Shown here in pieces: positions 18,692 to 45,644 of a stretch of 45,644 nt of DNA (within the stretch, counting starts at the first letter, position 1; every line of letters begins with the position of its first letter). This stretch comes from Rhodopila globiformis (GTDB lineage Bacteria > Pseudomonadota > Alphaproteobacteria > Acetobacterales > Acetobacteraceae): positions 1 to 45,644 of the forward strand of contig NZ_NHRY01000108.1 in the NCBI RefSeq assembly GCF_002937115.1, given 5' to 3'. The position numbers were made by a program, and so were the translations under genes. The notes under the pieces were generated by a model. It saw only the letters and a list, made by a program, of their open reading frames with translations. It did not search any database and was not told where the DNA came from.

Positions 18692-20023
18692 ATGAGCGGG
18701 AAGCAACAATTGCGGCTGGGCGCTTTCATGCGGCCAGTCAGCATCCACACCGCCTGGTGGCGCTATCCCGGCGCTTGGCCGGATGCCAACTTCAACTTCC
18801 GCCACATCGCGCGGCTGGCGCAGACGCTGGAGCGCGGCAAGTTCGACGCCTTCTTCATGGCCGATCATTTGGCCGTGCTGAACATGCCGATGAACGCGCT
18901 GAAACGCAGTGCAACCACCACGTCCTTCGATCCGCTGACGCTGCTGCCGGCGCTGGCGGTGGTGACCGAGCGGCTCGGCCTGATCGCCACCGCCTCCACC
19001 ACCTTCGATGAGCCCTATCACGTCGCCCGCAGGTTCGCCTCGCTCGATCACATCAGCAACGGGCGTGCCGGTTGGAACCTGGTGACCACCTCCAATCCCG
19101 ATGCCGCCCGGAATTTTGGCCTGGAGGAGCATGTCGAACACGCGGCCCGCTATGCCAAGGCGCGCGAGTTCTATGACGTGGTGACCGGCCTCTGGGACAG
19201 CTGGGCCGACGATGCCTTCATTCGCGACGTCGAGAACGGGGTTTACTTCGACCCCGAGCGGATGCACGTGCTCAATCACAAAGGCCCGCATTTCTCCGTC
19301 CGCGGCCCGCTGAATGTCGCCCGGCCCGTCCAGGGTTGGCCTGTCATCGTCCAGGCCGGCGCGTCAGAAGCCGGCCGGCAAATTGCGGCCGAAACCGCCG
19401 AAATGGTTTTCGCCGCCGGCGGGCCGATTGCGGAGGCGAGACGTTTCTATGCCGATGTCAAAGGCCGCGCCGCCGCGCTCGGACGCAATCCGGATCACCT
19501 GAAAATATTGCCCGGCGCGCTGGTCGTCGTTGCCGGCACCGTCGCCGAGGCGCGGCGGAAACGCGATCTGCTGGACAGCCTCGTCCATCCCGACAGTGGC
19601 ATTGCGTCACTCTCCATCGCCTTGGGCTGCGACGCCTCGGCCTTCGACCTGGACGGACCGTTGCCCGACATCCCGGAAACCAACCAGAGCAAGAGCGGCC
19701 GGCAGCGGGTGATCGACCGCGCGCGGCGGGAAAACCTGACGGTACGCCAGCTCGCCCAGATCGCGGGCGGCTATGGCGGCCTGTCCTTTACCGGGACGCC
19801 TCAGACGATTGCCGACGAAATGGAGGAATGGCTGCTCACCGGCGCCTGCGACGGCTTCAACGTGATGTTCCCTTACGTCCCGGGCGGCCTGGACGACTTC
19901 GTCGACATGGTCGTCCCCGAGCTGCAGCGCCGCGGCCTGTTCCGCACTGAGTACGAGGGGCGGACGCTGCGGGAGAACCTCGGATTGCCAAGACCCGCCA
20001 ACCGGTTCTTTCCTGACCGCTGA
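18692..20023 (+). CDS. NtaA/SnaA/DszA-type LLM-class flavin-dependent monooxygenase
   Basis: A 443-residue class C flavin monooxygenase of the bacterial-luciferase fold that uses FMNH2 from a separate reductase. Family features include RYPGAWPDANFNFRH near the N-terminus, FFMADHLAVL, DHISNGRAGWNLVTTSNPDAARNFG, and WPVIVQAGASEAGRQIAAETAEMVF. Relatives oxidise nitrilotriacetate, EDTA, pristinamycin precursors or sulfones, so the substrate cannot be named. It is followed 81 bases later by a CaiB-type CoA-transferase on the same strand. No flavin reductase gene lies next to it. It belongs to the NtaA branch and shows no features of the F420-using branch seen at 41975. Confidence 0.92.
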   Translation: MSGKQQLRLGAFMRPVSIHTAWWRYPGAWPDANFNFRHIARLAQTLERGKFDAFFMADHLAVLNMPMNALKRSATTTSFDPLTLLPALAVVTERLGLIATASTTFDEPYHVARRFASLDHISNGRAGWNLVTTSNPDAARNFGLEEHVEHAARYAKAREFYDVVTGLWDSWADDAFIRDVENGVYFDPERMHVLNHKGPHFSVRGPLNVARPVQGWPVIVQAGASEAGRQIAAETAEMVFAAGGPIAEARRFYADVKGRAAALGRNPDHLKILPGALVVVAGTVAEARRKRDLLDSLVHPDSGIASLSIALGCDASAFDLDGPLPDIPETNQSKSGRQRVIDRARRENLTVRQLAQIAGGYGGLSFTGTPQTIADEMEEWLLTGACDGFNVMFPYVPGGLDDFVDMVVPELQRRGLFRTEYEGRTLRENLGLPRPANRFFPDR

Positions 20024-40108: not shown

Positions 40109-41191
40109 TCAGCGCAGCTTGGGGGCGAATGCTTCATCATTAGGCATCGGCAGCATGGCGGAACCTTCCAATGACGGCAGACCTGCCGCCGGATAAAGAC
40201 CTTCCGCCTGCACGGCCGACGTCAACAGGTCAGGCCGGTAAACCTGCGCCGCCACCGCCGCCATATCGATCCTTTCATCCAGCCATCCCCATCGGCGCAT
40301 CTGTCCGAGAAACCAGAGAGCATGCGTACGCGCCGGAAACCACGCATCCCGCGTATGGAAACGGATACGTTCCTGCCCTTCGCCACCCGGCAAGGCCGCG
40401 CGGCTGGCCTCCTCCGGCAAGTTCAATCTCTTGGGGTCGGCCAGCAACGCTGCAATCCGTGCCGCCTCCTCAGATCGGTCGCACCGGACTTGCGCTTGCA
40501 GCACGGCCCGCAGCAGACGATGCGTCAACTCCGGATTGGCCTCGGACCAGGCTCCGGAGAAGCACAGGCATTTCTCTGGATGGAACGGCCAGATCACCGA
40601 CGTCCCGACCAGGATCTGCCCGGCGTTCTCCCGCTCCGCCACGTCGCCCCAGGGCGCGCCGGCACAGAAGCCTGAAATCGTGCCGGCAGCCAGAGCTGCG
40701 ACGACCTCTTCCGGTGGAATGACGACCGTTTCGATATCACGATCCGGATCGGCCCCGCCGGACGCCAGCCAGTAACGCAATAACAGGTTATGGGTGGAGA
40801 AGGCGTGCACAACCGCGAAACGTGGCCTGGTCTGCTGCGCCTGCAGCCATTCCAGCAGCCTGATGCCGGGTGGAGACCTATCTGCCTTCAGGCTGTTCGC
40901 GGCAGCATGGTTGCCAACGATCGCGTTGCCGCCCTGGCTGAGCGACATCGGCACGACCAGACGGGTCCTGGGGCCACGCAATCCGGCGCAGGCCGCCAGG
41001 GCCAGTGGCGGCAGCATCACGGCCGCGTCCAGGATGTTGTATGCCAGCTTGTCGGCGATGTTCGACCAGGACGGCTCGATGTGGATCTCGACATCGATGC
41101 CCTGTTGCGCGAACAGCCCGTCGGCCTCGGCAAGAATCAACGGCGCGCTGTCCACCAGCCGTAACAGCCCGACAAGGATCGGCTTGCTCAT
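40109..41191 (-). CDS. nasS: Nitrate-sensing NasS-like protein (NrtA/CmpA family)
   Basis: A 360-residue protein of the nitrate/bicarbonate-binding NrtA family without an export signal (starts MSKPILVGLLRLVDSAPLIL), which marks the cytoplasmic NasS branch. In characterised systems NasS binds nitrate or nitrite and releases the antiterminator NasT. Family segments include DGLFAQQGIDVEIHIEPSW and WGDVAEREN. Its ATG overlaps the nasT TGA (ATGA). The frame is intact, but its partner NasT is frameshifted and no nitrate transporter or reductase remains in the window, so it may be on its way to decay. Confidence 0.9.
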   Translation of the reverse strand: MSKPILVGLLRLVDSAPLILAEADGLFAQQGIDVEIHIEPSWSNIADKLAYNILDAAVMLPPLALAACAGLRGPRTRLVVPMSLSQGGNAIVGNHAAANSLKADRSPPGIRLLEWLQAQQTRPRFAVVHAFSTHNLLLRYWLASGGADPDRDIETVVIPPEEVVAALAAGTISGFCAGAPWGDVAERENAGQILVGTSVIWPFHPEKCLCFSGAWSEANPELTHRLLRAVLQAQVRCDRSEEAARIAALLADPKRLNLPEEASRAALPGGEGQERIRFHTRDAWFPARTHALWFLGQMRRWGWLDERIDMAAVAAQVYRPDLLTSAVQAEGLYPAAGLPSLEGSAMLPMPNDEAFAPKLR

Positions 41192-41761
41192 CGCGCGCTC
41201 CCTTTCCCGGCATCGACCAGGTCCTGTGCCACGTCCGCAATGCGGCGCGCGCTGCTCATGGCGTGCCTGCGCAGCCATCGGTAGGCCGCCGGTTCGCTGT
41301 ACCGGCGCTGCGTCATGAGTATCGCTTTTGCCCGATCAATCACTGTCCGGTCCCGCAGGCGTGCTTCCGCCTGCCTCAACTCGTCCTGTGCCTGCTGGAG
41401 CCGCCGGAACAGCCCCACGGCGGGGCGCAGGATGGGCTTGATATCCGGTGGCAATGCCGACGGCGTTGTAGGAAGCGACCCTGGCGTTGATGGCCTCCTC
41501 CATGAAGGTCGGATCGTCCTCATCGACGAACAGGACCACCGGCCGGGCGCTCGGGGCCGTCACCTGGCGGATCCCATCCAGCGCATCGCGGTCCGGGCGC
41601 GCCATGTCGACCAGGACGACATCGGGTGCCAGCGCCGCGAGCGCTTCGGCCAGCGGATCGCCAGGCATCAGCCGGACGACGCTCAGTCCCTCGTCGGCAA
41701 CCAGCACATGGGCGACGGCGCCGGCTCGTTCGGCATTGTCATCGGTCAGGAGCACTTTCAC
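41188..41761 (-). pseudogene. nasT: nasT, ANTAR-domain nitrate antiterminator, frameshifted
   Basis: The 5' frame (41761 downwards) encodes a NasT-type receiver domain (MKVLLTDDNAERAG, VVLVDMARPDRDAL with Asp52 in the phospho-acceptor place) to about NARVASYNAVGI. The coding then continues in another frame from about PPDIKPILRPAVGLF through a coiled coil and an ANTAR RNA-binding domain (LRDRTVIDRAKAILMTQRRY, then AYRWLRRHAM and RRIADVAQDLV), ending at 41188. A single-base indel around 41450-41465 separates the halves. ANTAR proteins of this type bind paired hexaloop hairpins in nas leader RNAs. It is either a true mutation or a sequencing error; the neighbouring cobA stub favours decay. Confidence 0.85.
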
Positions 41762-41974
41762 GCGTGTTCATCTCGAATGCGCATGGAGGCAGGAGAGGCA
41801 AAGCCCGTGCCGCACCGGGATCATCGGAACGCCGTTGTGAGGCAGCAAACCGGCACATTGACCGCTTAAACTTGTGGCAGCCGATGCGCACATGGCTTGC
41901 ACATCGCCTGTTCTACGGATTGCCGCGCCTCAGGCTCGGCGGTAGCGTTGCGGCCAACAGAAGGAAGCAGATCC

Positions 41975-42982
41975 ATGACCCTGAAACTCGGCTACAAGGC
42001 CTCGGCGGAGCAGTTCGCGCCGCGTAAGCTGCTGGATTTTTCCGTGGCGGCGGAGCAGGCGGGGTTCGATTCCGTGTTCGTCAGCGATCACTTCCAGCCC
42101 TGGCGCCACACCGACGGGCACGCGCCATCCGCCCTCGCCTGGCTGGGCGCCCTGGGAGCCAGCACGCAGCGCATCGTCATGGGCACCAGCGTCCTGACGC
42201 CGACGTTCCGCTATCATCCGTCCATCGTGGCACAGGTTTTCGGCACGCTCGGCTCGCTGTTTCCGGGACGCGTCATCCTGGGCGTCGGCACGGGCGAGGG
42301 GCTGAACGAAGTCCCCGCCACGGGCATGGTGTGGCCGGAGACGAAGGAGCGATTCGCCCGCCTGCGGGAGGCAGTCAGCCTGATCCGCAAGCTGTGGTCG
42401 GAGGACGAACTGACCTTCCCGGGCGAGTACTACAAGACCCAGAACGCCACCGTGTACGACAAGCCCGGCGCCTACCTGCCGATCTACGTCGCCGGCGCGG
42501 GGCCGCAGGTCGCGAAATACGCCGGGCGGATGGCCGATGGTTTCATCTGCACCAGCGGCAAGAAATGGGACCTCTACACCGAGACCCTGCTGCCGAACGT
42601 GGCCGAGGGCCTGTCCCTGTCCGCGAAGCCGAAGCCGGACTTCGACCGGATGATTGAAATGAAGGTGTCCTTCGACCCTGACAAGCGGCGCGCCATGGAG
42701 GACACCAAAATCTGGGCCGCCCTGGCGCTGACGCCGGAGGAGAAGGTAACCGTGCACAATCCCAAGGAGATGGAGCGCCTCGCCGACGCCCTGCCCGTCG
42801 AACGTGCCGCCAGCCGCTGGATTGTCTCATCCGACCCGGACGAGCATATCGAGAAGATCAAGCCGTACATCGATATGGGCTTCCGTCATCTGGTGTTTCA
42901 TGCGCCCGGCGACGACCAGGCCCGGTTCATCAAACTGTACGGGGACCTGGTGCTGCCGAAGCTGCGCGCCCGCTTCGGGTGA
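41975..42982 (+). CDS. fgd: F420-dependent glucose-6-phosphate dehydrogenase (FGD family)
   Basis: A 335-residue LLM-fold, F420-reducing enzyme. It is strikingly similar by eye to mycobacterial Fgd1: [14 protein letters not shown] at the start, [26 protein letters not shown] and ADALP. Residues known from the Fgd1 structure have clear counterparts: Asp38, His39, Trp43 and Glu108 at the active site, and the phosphate-binding set Thr193, Lys196, Lys257 and Arg281. It is therefore expected to oxidise glucose 6-phosphate to the lactone and form F420H2, probably in the cytoplasm. The start ATG 41975 has AGGAAG upstream. It is first in an operon with cofE, cofD and cofC (1-base gap to cofE). The 213-base gap before it is divergent from nasT. 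Confidence 0.95.
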
Positions 42983-42983
42983 C

Positions 42984-43745
42984 ATGACCTCCCGGCTGGA
43001 ACTGTTCGCGCTCCCCGGCCTGCCGATGGTGCAGGCCGGGGATGATTTGTCAGCCTTGATCCTGGGCGGCCTGGATCGTGCCGGGCAGGTGCTGCGCGAC
43101 CGCGACGTCGTGGTGATCGCGCAGAAGATCGTCTCCAAGGCGGAGGGCCGCACGGTCGACCTGGCGGATGTCGTGCCCTCGGCCAAGGCCGTCAGGCTGG
43201 CGGACGAGGTCGGCAAGGATCCGCGGATCGTCGAGGTGGTGCTGTCGGAGTCGGTCAAGGTCGTGCGCAGCCGGCCGAACCTGATGATCATGCAGCACCG
43301 CCTCGGCTTCGTGATGGCGAACGCCGGCATCGACCAGTCAAACGTCGCGGAAGCCGATGGGCACCAGCGCGTGCTGCTGTTGCCGCGCGATCCCGACGGC
43401 TCCGCCGCGGCGATCCGCGCCCGGCTGGCGCGCCATGCGGATGTCGGCGTGGTGATCAGCGACAGTTTCGGCCGTCCCTGGCGGCGCGGCACCGCCGGGG
43501 TCGCCATCGGTGCGGCCGGCATCCCGTCGCTGATCGACCTGCGCGGGCAGCCCGACCTGTTCGGCCGCACGCTGGAGGTCAGCATCATCGGCTTCGCGGA
43601 CGAGATTGCCGCCGCCGCGTCGTTGTTGCAGGGTCAGGCCGCGGAAGCGCAACCCGTCGTCATCGTTCGGGGCTTGACGTGGCAGGCCCCGAGTGTGCCG
43701 GTGGCGGATGTCGTCCGTCCGCCTGAGGAGGATCTTTTCCAGTGA
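42984..43745 (+). CDS. cofE: Coenzyme F420-0:L-glutamate ligase CofE
   Basis: Adds gamma-linked glutamate residues to F420-0 using GTP. The 253-residue protein is the single-domain CofE form, without the nitroreductase-like C-terminal domain of actinobacterial FbiB. Signatures are VVIAQKIVSKAEGR, VVISDSFGRPWRRGTAGVAIG (the conserved metal/GTP site) and a LFGRTLEV segment. It starts one base after fgd and ends overlapping the cofD start (GTGA). How long a glutamate tail it makes cannot be read from sequence. Confidence 0.95.
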   Translation: MTSRLELFALPGLPMVQAGDDLSALILGGLDRAGQVLRDRDVVVIAQKIVSKAEGRTVDLADVVPSAKAVRLADEVGKDPRIVEVVLSESVKVVRSRPNLMIMQHRLGFVMANAGIDQSNVAEADGHQRVLLLPRDPDGSAAAIRARLARHADVGVVISDSFGRPWRRGTAGVAIGAAGIPSLIDLRGQPDLFGRTLEVSIIGFADEIAAAASLLQGQAAEAQPVVIVRGLTWQAPSVPVADVVRPPEEDLFQ

Positions 43746-44710
43746 TCATCGCTTTGTCCGGCGGGGTAGGGGGCGCCAAGCTCGCCCTTGGCCTGTCGCG
43801 CATCATGCCCCCGGAGAACCTGCTGGTTGTCGTCAACACCGGCGACGATTTCGAGCATCTGGGGCTGTCGATTTCCCCCGATATCGACACGGTCACCTAT
43901 ACCCTGGCCGGGCTGGCGAACCGGGAACTCGGCTGGGGACGCCACGACGAGACCTGGTCGTTCATGGCGACGTTGGAAGCGCTGGGCGGCGAGACCTGGT
44001 TTCGCCTGGGCGACCACGACGTCGCCCTGCATGTCGAGCGCACCCGGCGACTGAAGGCTGGGGAAAGCCTGTCCGCCGTCACGGCCGATTTCTGCCGGCG
44101 GCTGGGAGTTGGGCCGCTTGTGCTGCCGATGACGGACGATCCGGTGCGCACCCGGCTGCTGACGGAACACGGCTGGCTGGATTTCCAGGAGTACTTTGTC
44201 CATCGGCGGTGCGAGCCGGTGGTCAGCGAATTGCAGTTCCAGGGCGCCGGCGCCGCCCGGCCGCACCCGGATTTCATTGCCGCCCTGGCGGATGAGGCGC
44301 TGGAAGCGGTGGTGATCTGCCCCTCCAACCCGTTCATCAGCGTCGAGCCGATCCTGGCGATACCGGGGGTGCGGGAGGCGATGATGGCGTGCAAGGCGCC
44401 GATCATCGCGGTGTCGCCGATCATCGCCGGCCGGGCGGTGAAGGGGCCGACGGCCAAGATGATGACCGAACTGGGCCTGGACCCGTCGGCCGGCACCGTT
44501 GCCCACCGCTACGCCGAACTGCTGGACGGCTATGTCATCGACCATGCCGACATGTCGGAGGTCGTCTCGATCGATGCCCGCGTGACCCTGGCCCAGACGC
44601 TGATGACGACGATCGAGGACCGGGAAGCGCTGGCCCGGATCGTGGTCGAGGCAGCGGCCACGCTGCGGCGGCGGGAATTGCGCGGCCTGCGGCATCGCGG
44701 CCAGCGATGA
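43742..44710 (+). CDS. cofD: F420-0 synthase: 2-phospho-L-lactate (or analogue) transferase CofD
   Basis: Transfers the phospho-acid moiety from its GDP-activated form to the deazaflavin FO. The 322-residue protein has the N-terminal GGVGGAKLALGL (7-18), NTGDDFEHLGLSISPDIDTV, and CPSNPFISVEPILAIPG. The start is GTG 43742, overlapping the cofE stop. Whether the acid is 2-phospholactate, phosphoenolpyruvate or 3-phosphoglycerate (as shown for some proteobacteria) depends mainly on CofC and cannot be decided by eye. It ends 10 bases before the cofC ATG, with a short duplication between. Confidence 0.96.
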   Translation: MIIALSGGVGGAKLALGLSRIMPPENLLVVVNTGDDFEHLGLSISPDIDTVTYTLAGLANRELGWGRHDETWSFMATLEALGGETWFRLGDHDVALHVERTRRLKAGESLSAVTADFCRRLGVGPLVLPMTDDPVRTRLLTEHGWLDFQEYFVHRRCEPVVSELQFQGAGAARPHPDFIAALADEALEAVVICPSNPFISVEPILAIPGVREAMMACKAPIIAVSPIIAGRAVKGPTAKMMTELGLDPSAGTVAHRYAELLDGYVIDHADMSEVVSIDARVTLAQTLMTTIEDREALARIVVEAAATLRRRELRGLRHRGQR

Positions 44711-44730
44711 TCGACGACCGATGATCGACG
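44705..44730 (+). repeat. 14-bp tandem duplication at the cofD-cofC junction
   Basis: CGATGATCGACGAC is followed directly by CGATGATCGACGTC (13 of 14 bases alike). The first copy holds an ATG at 44707 that overlaps the cofD TGA; the second holds the cofC ATG at 44721. The first ATG opens a five-codon reading frame (MIDDR) whose TGA overlaps the cofC ATG. Confidence 0.85.
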
Positions 44731-45368
44731 TCTGGGCGGCCGTTCCAGTCAAGGCCTTCACCGGGGCCAAGTCGCGCACCTCGTCGGTGCTGACGCCGGA
44801 GCAACGCGAAATCCTGGCCGCGGCGATGCTGGAGGACGTGCTGGCGGCGCTGGCCGGATCGACCCTGCTGGCCGGCATTCTCGTCAACACGGTCGATCCT
44901 GTGGCCGCGAACCTCGCCGTCCGGTATGGCGCGCGCGTGGTGACCGAGGGCGCTCTGGACGGCCATACCGGGGCGGTGAACGGCATGGCGCGTGTATTGG
45001 CAGCGGAGGGGAAGGGCGCGCTGCTGACCGTGCCGGGGGACATTCCGCGGGTGACCTCGGCGGAGATCGACGCGGTCGTTGCGTCGTGCCTGTCGGCGCC
45101 ATCCTTCACCATCGTGCCGGCGCACGATGAGCTGGGATCGAACGCCGTGCTCTGTGCGCCGCCGTTCTCCGTACCGCTGCGGTTCGGCGACGACAGCTAT
45201 TTCCCGCACCTGATGGCCGCGCGCGCGAAGGGGATCGAGCCGACAATCGTCAGGCTGCCGGGGATCGGACTGGATATCGACCACCCGGTGGACCTGCGGG
45301 CCTTCGTTGCGGGTCGGCCGAGGATGCCGACGCGGACGCTGGCGCTGCTGGAGCGGTTCGGATTTTGA
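44721..45368 (+). CDS. cofC: Guanylyltransferase CofC for the F420 phospho-acid moiety
   Basis: Activates 2-phospholactate, phosphoenolpyruvate or 3-phosphoglycerate with GTP for CofD. The 215-residue nucleotidyltransferase fold shows AVPVKAFTGAKSR at the start (phosphate-binding loop with Lys), LLTVPGDIPRVTSAEID (the metal-binding Asp) and GIGLDIDHPVDLRAF. It is last gene of the F420 operon. The genes for FO synthase (cofG/cofH or fbiC) are not in the window. Confidence 0.95.
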   Translation: MIDVWAAVPVKAFTGAKSRTSSVLTPEQREILAAAMLEDVLAALAGSTLLAGILVNTVDPVAANLAVRYGARVVTEGALDGHTGAVNGMARVLAAEGKGALLTVPGDIPRVTSAEIDAVVASCLSAPSFTIVPAHDELGSNAVLCAPPFSVPLRFGDDSYFPHLMAARAKGIEPTIVRLPGIGLDIDHPVDLRAFVAGRPRMPTRTLALLERFGF

Positions 45369-45458
45369 TACCGACCGATATCGAGAGCGGCTGTTTCTGA
45401 GTCATCCTGGTCGGCGCAGACCGCAGGGGCGTCAAAACAGGGCCGCCTGTTGCTTCCG

Positions 45459-45644
45459 CGTCATGGCCCGGTGTGTCCGCATAGGCGCTAACATAGGGGA
45501 GCAGGGCGTGGTCGTCGCCCTATCGTCATGGCCGGGCGTGTCCCTACGCAATGCACACATCCTGGAAACGAGTCGGAAATGACCGTAAAATCAAGTGCTT
45601 GCCTGGGCGCCAAGAGCGTTCCCCCATCGTCATGGCCCGGCTTG
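45459..45644 (+). repeat. Dispersed repeat units at the window end
   Basis: Three related units fill most of the gene-free end (45369-45644). The block at 45459-45495 (TCATGGCCCGG, TGTCCGCATAGGCGCTAA) matches 25641-25680. A second unit at about 45523-45580 (ATCGTCATGGCCGGGCGTGT...GGAAACGAGT) matches the minus strand of 154-210. A third starts at about 45625 (CCATCGTCATGGCCCGGCTTG) and is cut by the window edge. The repeats follow the cofC stop by about 90 bases. No gene or terminator is evident in 45369-45458. Confidence 0.8.

Follow-up and report, generated by a model that had tools for sequence, protein, structure and literature searches.

Does Rhodopila globiformis, an acid-loving purple phototroph, produce F420, an unusual electron carrier, and how would it reduce and spend it? 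The question is raised by four plus-strand genes, fgd-cofE-cofD-cofC, at positions 41975–45368 of a 45,644-nucleotide stretch of DNA (the window), which is contig C108 of a 278-contig genome of 7,248,147 bases. A first-pass annotation had read these tightly linked or overlapping genes as a compact F420 operon in an alphaproteobacterial chromosome, and both the linkage and the coordinates were confirmed. When the proteins were compared with NCBIfam equivalogs, each of the four exceeded the curated cut-off of the family named in that annotation, and Pfam assignments were concordant throughout. We consider it highly probable that this is the F420 operon of R. globiformis, with F420 being made and reduced with glucose 6-phosphate, and F420H2 being spent by enzymes encoded elsewhere. 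The features of the locus are as follows.

41959–41974, plus strand: putative ribosome-binding stretch directly 5′ of fgd, identified by eye.
41975–42982, plus strand: fgd; TIGR03554, 470.9 bits against a cut-off of 420; best solved relatives 5lxe and 3b4y; pocket residues conserved.
42984–43745, plus strand: cofE, F420-0:L-glutamate ligase, 253 residues; TIGR01916, 268.7 bits against 180.65; relatives 2phn and 7uld.
43742–44710, plus strand: cofD, 2-phospho-L-lactate / phosphoenolpyruvate transferase, 322 residues; TIGR01819, 293.5 bits against 257.45.
44721–45368, plus strand: cofC, guanylyltransferase for the three-carbon acid linker, 215 residues; TIGR03552, 121.7 bits against 105.

The listed open reading frames of fgd and cofE start at 41897 (TTG) and 42804 (GTG), respectively; the inner ATG codons at 41975 and 42984 were adopted. 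With these starts, fgd and cofE are separated by 1 base and cofD and cofC by 10 bases, while the GTG start of cofD overlaps the cofE stop by 4 bases. CofE stands alone, carrying the Pfam F420_ligase domain and no fused FbiB-type reductase domain, and solved relatives of CofD include the CofD structure 3c3d (197.5 bits) and the FbiA structure 6uvx (170 bits). A CofD-based scan of named genomes yielded at least 524 confirmed relatives, from which the best 80 loci, a selection biased to close relatives, were kept. Same order was defined as one strand, Fgd above 60% identity and an fgd-cofE gap below 300 bases. By this definition, fgd-cofE-cofD-cofC was found in 59 of the best 80 loci, all four genes in another arrangement in 7, partial sets in 13 and CofD alone in 1, with contig ends cutting many of them. 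This recurrence of gene order rules out chance as the origin of the cluster.

We next consider whether the encoded Fgd retains the residues expected of an F420-reducing enzyme. Contact positions were taken from Mycobacterium tuberculosis Fgd1 and transferred via alignment. The structural descriptions of that enzyme list His40, Ser73, Val74 and Glu109 as F420 contacts, Lys232 as a citrate contact, and Lys198, Lys259 and Arg283 as the phosphate pocket (PMC5352752, PMC3859598). All of these residues are kept in the window Fgd, where the phosphate pocket corresponds to K196, K257 and R281, and neither they nor Trp44 vary in any of the 68 Fgd sequences compared. This set comprised the window and 67 of the 80 loci, after 11 without an Fgd match and two below 85% length (L138 and L144) had been dropped. 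Together with the TIGR03554 score, this conservation gives good sequence support to the earlier proposal that F420 would be reduced by glucose 6-phosphate. Fno (TIGR01915) was considered as a second F420 reducer and rejected: nothing in the R. globiformis genome matched it at E ≤ 0.001, and it was above cut-off in 1 of 59 genomes (this genome, 32 others of the genus, 2 others of the family and 24 others of the class). A search for Fgd homologues returned 7997 matches among 8000 scored candidates, the best 120 of which were 77–92% identical.

A second Fgd-like protein was observed on contig G000:C277 (L154:763–1884, plus strand). It scored below the cut-off of TIGR04465 (333.4 bits against 470) and above that of TIGR03557 (250.7 against 210.4), and it is closest to F420-dependent hydroxymycolic acid dehydrogenase, with 9fp4 as its best solved relative. 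Its N-terminal stretch is twin-arginine-like. These features suggest that the protein may be an F420 enzyme exported by a Gram-negative bacterium.

The operon lacks the first step of the pathway, and the first-pass annotation had placed the FO synthase outside the window, naming its absence from the genome, together with a lack of F420 in extracts, as grounds for giving up the F420 interpretation. The enzyme was found on a separate contig, C274, as a fused CofGH (FbiC) with two CxxxCxxC motifs, scoring 1139.3 bits on NF006687 against a cut-off of 1018 and exceeding the cut-offs of both TIGR03550 and TIGR03551. Since fbiC lies about 40 kb and about 18 kb from the ends of C274, it does not adjoin the operon in this genome. 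Directly divergent from it are two F420-type luciferase-like genes, one above the TIGR03559 cut-off and the other above that of TIGR03619. The genome-wide check for F420H2-dependent reductases that the annotation had called for also returned candidates. A protein of the F420H2_quin_red type (PF04075) on contig C271 passes TIGR00026, and PF04075 was found in none of 14 control genomes. The luciferase-like family PF00296 has 61 matches in the genome, a count that covers Fgd and in which some matches are fragments of the same gene, and PF01243 has 7. Judged from these family assignments, the deazaflavin-dependent reductase on C271 and some of the luciferase-like proteins are candidate users of F420H2. 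The window itself encodes a luciferase-like protein at 18692–20020, an FMN-dependent monooxygenase of the NtaA/DmoA family (TIGR03860, 579.5 bits against 279.7).

We then asked whether these genes are particular to this strain. Among the 33 genomes of the genus, CofH and CofC were above cut-off in 31 each and Fgd in 28. The genus genomes missing one of the three are labelled as 64 to 86% complete, except G025, which is labelled 99% complete and has no CofH. That genome, labelled 7% contaminated, keeps the four-gene operon (G025:C99, L062) and has no CofH match at E ≤ 0.001. One of the two other genomes of the family has all three proteins, and the 24 other genomes of the class contain CofH in 3, CofC in 3 and Fgd in 1, so that CofH is above cut-off in 35 of the 59 genomes. 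FbiC was visible in 39 of the best 80 loci, lying convergent downstream in 27, codirectional in 11 and otherwise in 1. Patristic distances from FastTree trees were compared in 62 four-gene and 33 five-gene sequence sets. They were correlated at r 0.68–0.92 for the four genes and 0.73–0.93 when FbiC was included, and across all 16 comparisons the observed value exceeded that of every one of 999 label permutations. This correlation supports joint inheritance of the operon genes, although shared species history alone could yield the same result. The earlier claim of acquisition as a unit is therefore supported in one half, as the shared order and the correlated trees show genes that occur and evolve together. 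With 28 to 31 of 33 genus genomes carrying them, the genes look inherited in this strain, and for this group of bacteria such a cluster is nothing unusual. One locus in a record labelled Planctomycetota (L131), whose Fgd and CofD are 71% and 60% identical to those of the window and whose FbiC lies on the same strand, may reflect either transfer or a mislabelled bin.

Which three-carbon acid would form the linker of the cofactor? We examined 72 CofC sequences, comprising the window and 71 of the 80 loci (left out were six loci with no match and three of insufficient length, L096, L116 and L117). The FbiD residues reported to bind metal or substrate, Lys17, Asp116, Ser166, Asp188 and Asp190 (PMC8764529), have equivalents that are invariant in 72 of 72, and the position of FbiD Thr148 is Asn in all of them. 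Among solved structures, the window CofC is closest by sequence to 7p97, a 3-phosphoglycerate (3-PG) guanylyltransferase, which suggested the 3PG-F420 route. That route was rejected, because the position of Mrhiz S162, where Ser or Thr is diagnostic for 3-PG enzymes (PMC8764529), is occupied by Gly156 in the window and by Gly in 72 of 72. At the position that contacts phosphoenolpyruvate (PEP), which is Leu92 in FbiD and Met91 in the 3-PG enzyme (PMC8764529), the window has His82 and the set has His in 65, Leu in 4, Gln in 2 and Tyr in 1, a placement made via a gapped-loop alignment and less secure than the others. In the pathway that we propose, FbiC, encoded elsewhere, would make FO; CofC would activate a three-carbon phospho-acid (PEP or 2-phospho-L-lactate (2-PL), rather than 3-PG) with GTP; CofD would transfer the activated acid to FO; and CofE would add glutamates. 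Fgd would then use glucose 6-phosphate to reduce F420, and deazaflavin-dependent and luciferase-like oxidoreductases from other parts of the genome would consume the F420H2. The sequences establish to which families the five proteins belong, the presence of the published contact residues, and the operon with its conservation, whereas F420 production, the linker acid and the users are inferred.

Several observations weigh against this proposal. We know of no bacterial source of 2-PL. Among the papers searched we found none naming both Rhodopila and F420 and no chemical evidence of F420 in the species, and in other Alphaproteobacteria F420 is described only as traces in two species in the review sections concerned (PMC8498797). 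PF00296 also has matches in 10 of the 14 controls, and therefore the 61 matches are by their number alone no proof of F420 use. If PEP is the linker acid, a dehydro-F420 reductase is needed (PMC8498797; PMC6450877), and neither the FbiB C-terminal domain nor FbiE of the mycobacterial-type route was found, as TIGR03553 was above cut-off in none of the 59 genomes, that of R. globiformis included; it was likewise above cut-off in none of the 14 controls, no stand-alone FbiE served as positive control, and the search may have overlooked a divergent enzyme. The traces could be taken to mean that the four genes are paralogues with another function or a dead remnant, a reading that we consider extremely improbable. 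All four proteins lie above equivalog cut-offs, their contact residues are invariant, and the genes persist in 28 to 31 of 33 genus genomes; chance or paralogy was rejected on the scores and the invariant residues.

With neither a recognised reductase nor a 3-PG signature, the linker could be explained by PEP with an unrecognised reductase, by 2-PL as the acid, or by a cofactor that stays unreduced. That PEP gives ordinary F420 by way of a reductase that the actinobacterial model fails to recognise, such as a nitroreductase-family protein, is a real possibility, though on balance somewhat doubtful. The genome has eight PF00881 (nitroreductase family) matches, namely BluB, a malonic semialdehyde reductase above cut-off and six proteins without a family above cut-off. 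Of the six, two show similarity to NAD(P)H nitroreductase, scoring 182.7 and 149.7 bits (cut-off 183), and a third to an oxygen-insensitive NADPH nitroreductase, at 119.5 bits (cut-off 223). None of the eight is above cut-off as FbiE, however: the best TIGR03553 match (57 bits) proved to be BluB, which scores 259.2 bits on its own family (cut-off 150), and the other seven reach at most 38.5 bits. Such scores are no better than those in genomes without CofH above cut-off, one of which (G043) reaches 57.5 bits, like the BluB found here. In addition, a recurring-neighbour analysis of the 80 loci, with open reading frames filtered by codon position, gave nine families present in at least five of the best 80; the two found most often, in 38 and 18 loci, are luciferase-like by eye, and no nitroreductase was seen among the nine, by eye only and with no domain scan. 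A variant cofactor, in which the incorporated PEP stays unreduced and dehydro-F420 (or a form with another linker) is used directly by Fgd and the F420H2 users, would fit the lack of the 3-PG residue in all 72 CofCs, the lack of an FbiE or FbiB reductase domain above cut-off in genomes of which 35 have CofH, and the His in 65 of 72 where FbiD has its PEP-contact Leu and the 3-PG enzyme Met (PMC8764529). We nevertheless regard it as unlikely. The CofCs of Paracoccus and Oligotropha turn over 2-PL best and PEP less, although assays of that kind cannot distinguish 2-PL from PEP in vivo, and the result is influenced by which CofD is used (PMC8764529); the passages of the review dealing with these two species speak of F420 and mention no dehydro form (PMC8498797); and the nitroreductase-family proteins without assigned family could carry out the reduction. 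Returning to the operon as a source of F420, we tentatively suggest, as a proposal almost evenly balanced for and against, that the Rhodopila lineage and related Alphaproteobacteria make the linker through a bacterial route that has yet to be described, given the lineage-typical histidine in the CofC pocket, the lack of a 3-PG signature and the lack of a recognised reductase. If so, it would involve an as yet unrecognised reductase, 2-PL of bacterial origin or a cofactor that stays unreduced.

The surroundings of the operon were also inspected. Divergent from fgd, on the minus strand, lie genes for an SsuA-like substrate-binding protein that scores below its cut-off (40112–41278) and for a receiver-domain-like protein without a family above cut-off (41339–41761), which may, speculatively, form a nitrate-sensing pair. 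The contig ends 276 bases 3′ of cofC, and near-copies of a short stretch like cgtcatggcccgg were seen by eye at 45300–45644; this may be a dispersed repeat that broke the assembly. Elsewhere, the genome holds two separate pufL/pufM-type pairs, on C156 and C226 (four PF00124 matches). The C156 PufM is identical over 326 residues to chain 7xxf_M, from the LH1-RC of R. globiformis strain DSM 161 (PMC9640540), which confirms the alphaproteobacterial origin assumed in the first-pass annotation and suggests that the strain is probably DSM 161.

These results describe an F420 system that is nearly complete, and in which Fgd was the sole known F420 reducer to be found, in a phototroph that is very probably a cultured type strain and has 61 luciferase-like matches. 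F420 physiology in Alphaproteobacteria, for which the review cites traces in two species (PMC8498797), thereby becomes testable, and a gap is narrowed concerning the completion of the F420 linker in bacteria that have neither a recognised FbiB/FbiE reductase nor a 3-PG signature. The system departs from the textbook in two respects: no Fno was found, and the lack of a recognised dehydro-F420 reductase is combined with a CofC without the 3-PG signature. Compared with F420 biosynthesis as reviewed for Paracoccus, Oligotropha and predicted alphaproteobacterial producers (PMC8498797), it differs in the absence of Fno, which was above cut-off in a single genome of the 59. It resembles the mycobacterial pathway (FbiA-D and Fgd1; PMC6450877, PMC7253369) in its fused FbiC, its CofC/FbiD and CofD/FbiA homologues and Fgd as F420 reducer, but CofE occurs alone, without the FbiB reductase domain, and no separate reductase is above cut-off. 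With the Mycetohabitans 3PG-F420 pathway (PMC8764529) it shares 7p97 as the best solved CofC relative and a CofE homologue (PMC8498797), but all 72 CofCs have Gly in place of the diagnostic Ser/Thr. What is added here is the organism, the absence of Fno and a linker gap that extends across a genus. Since Fgd was already predicted for alphaproteobacterial F420 producers in a 2021 review (PMC8498797) and the CofCs of Paracoccus and Oligotropha have been assayed (PMC8764529), the operon belongs to a known kind, and its gene arrangement is already known in outline from related bacteria.

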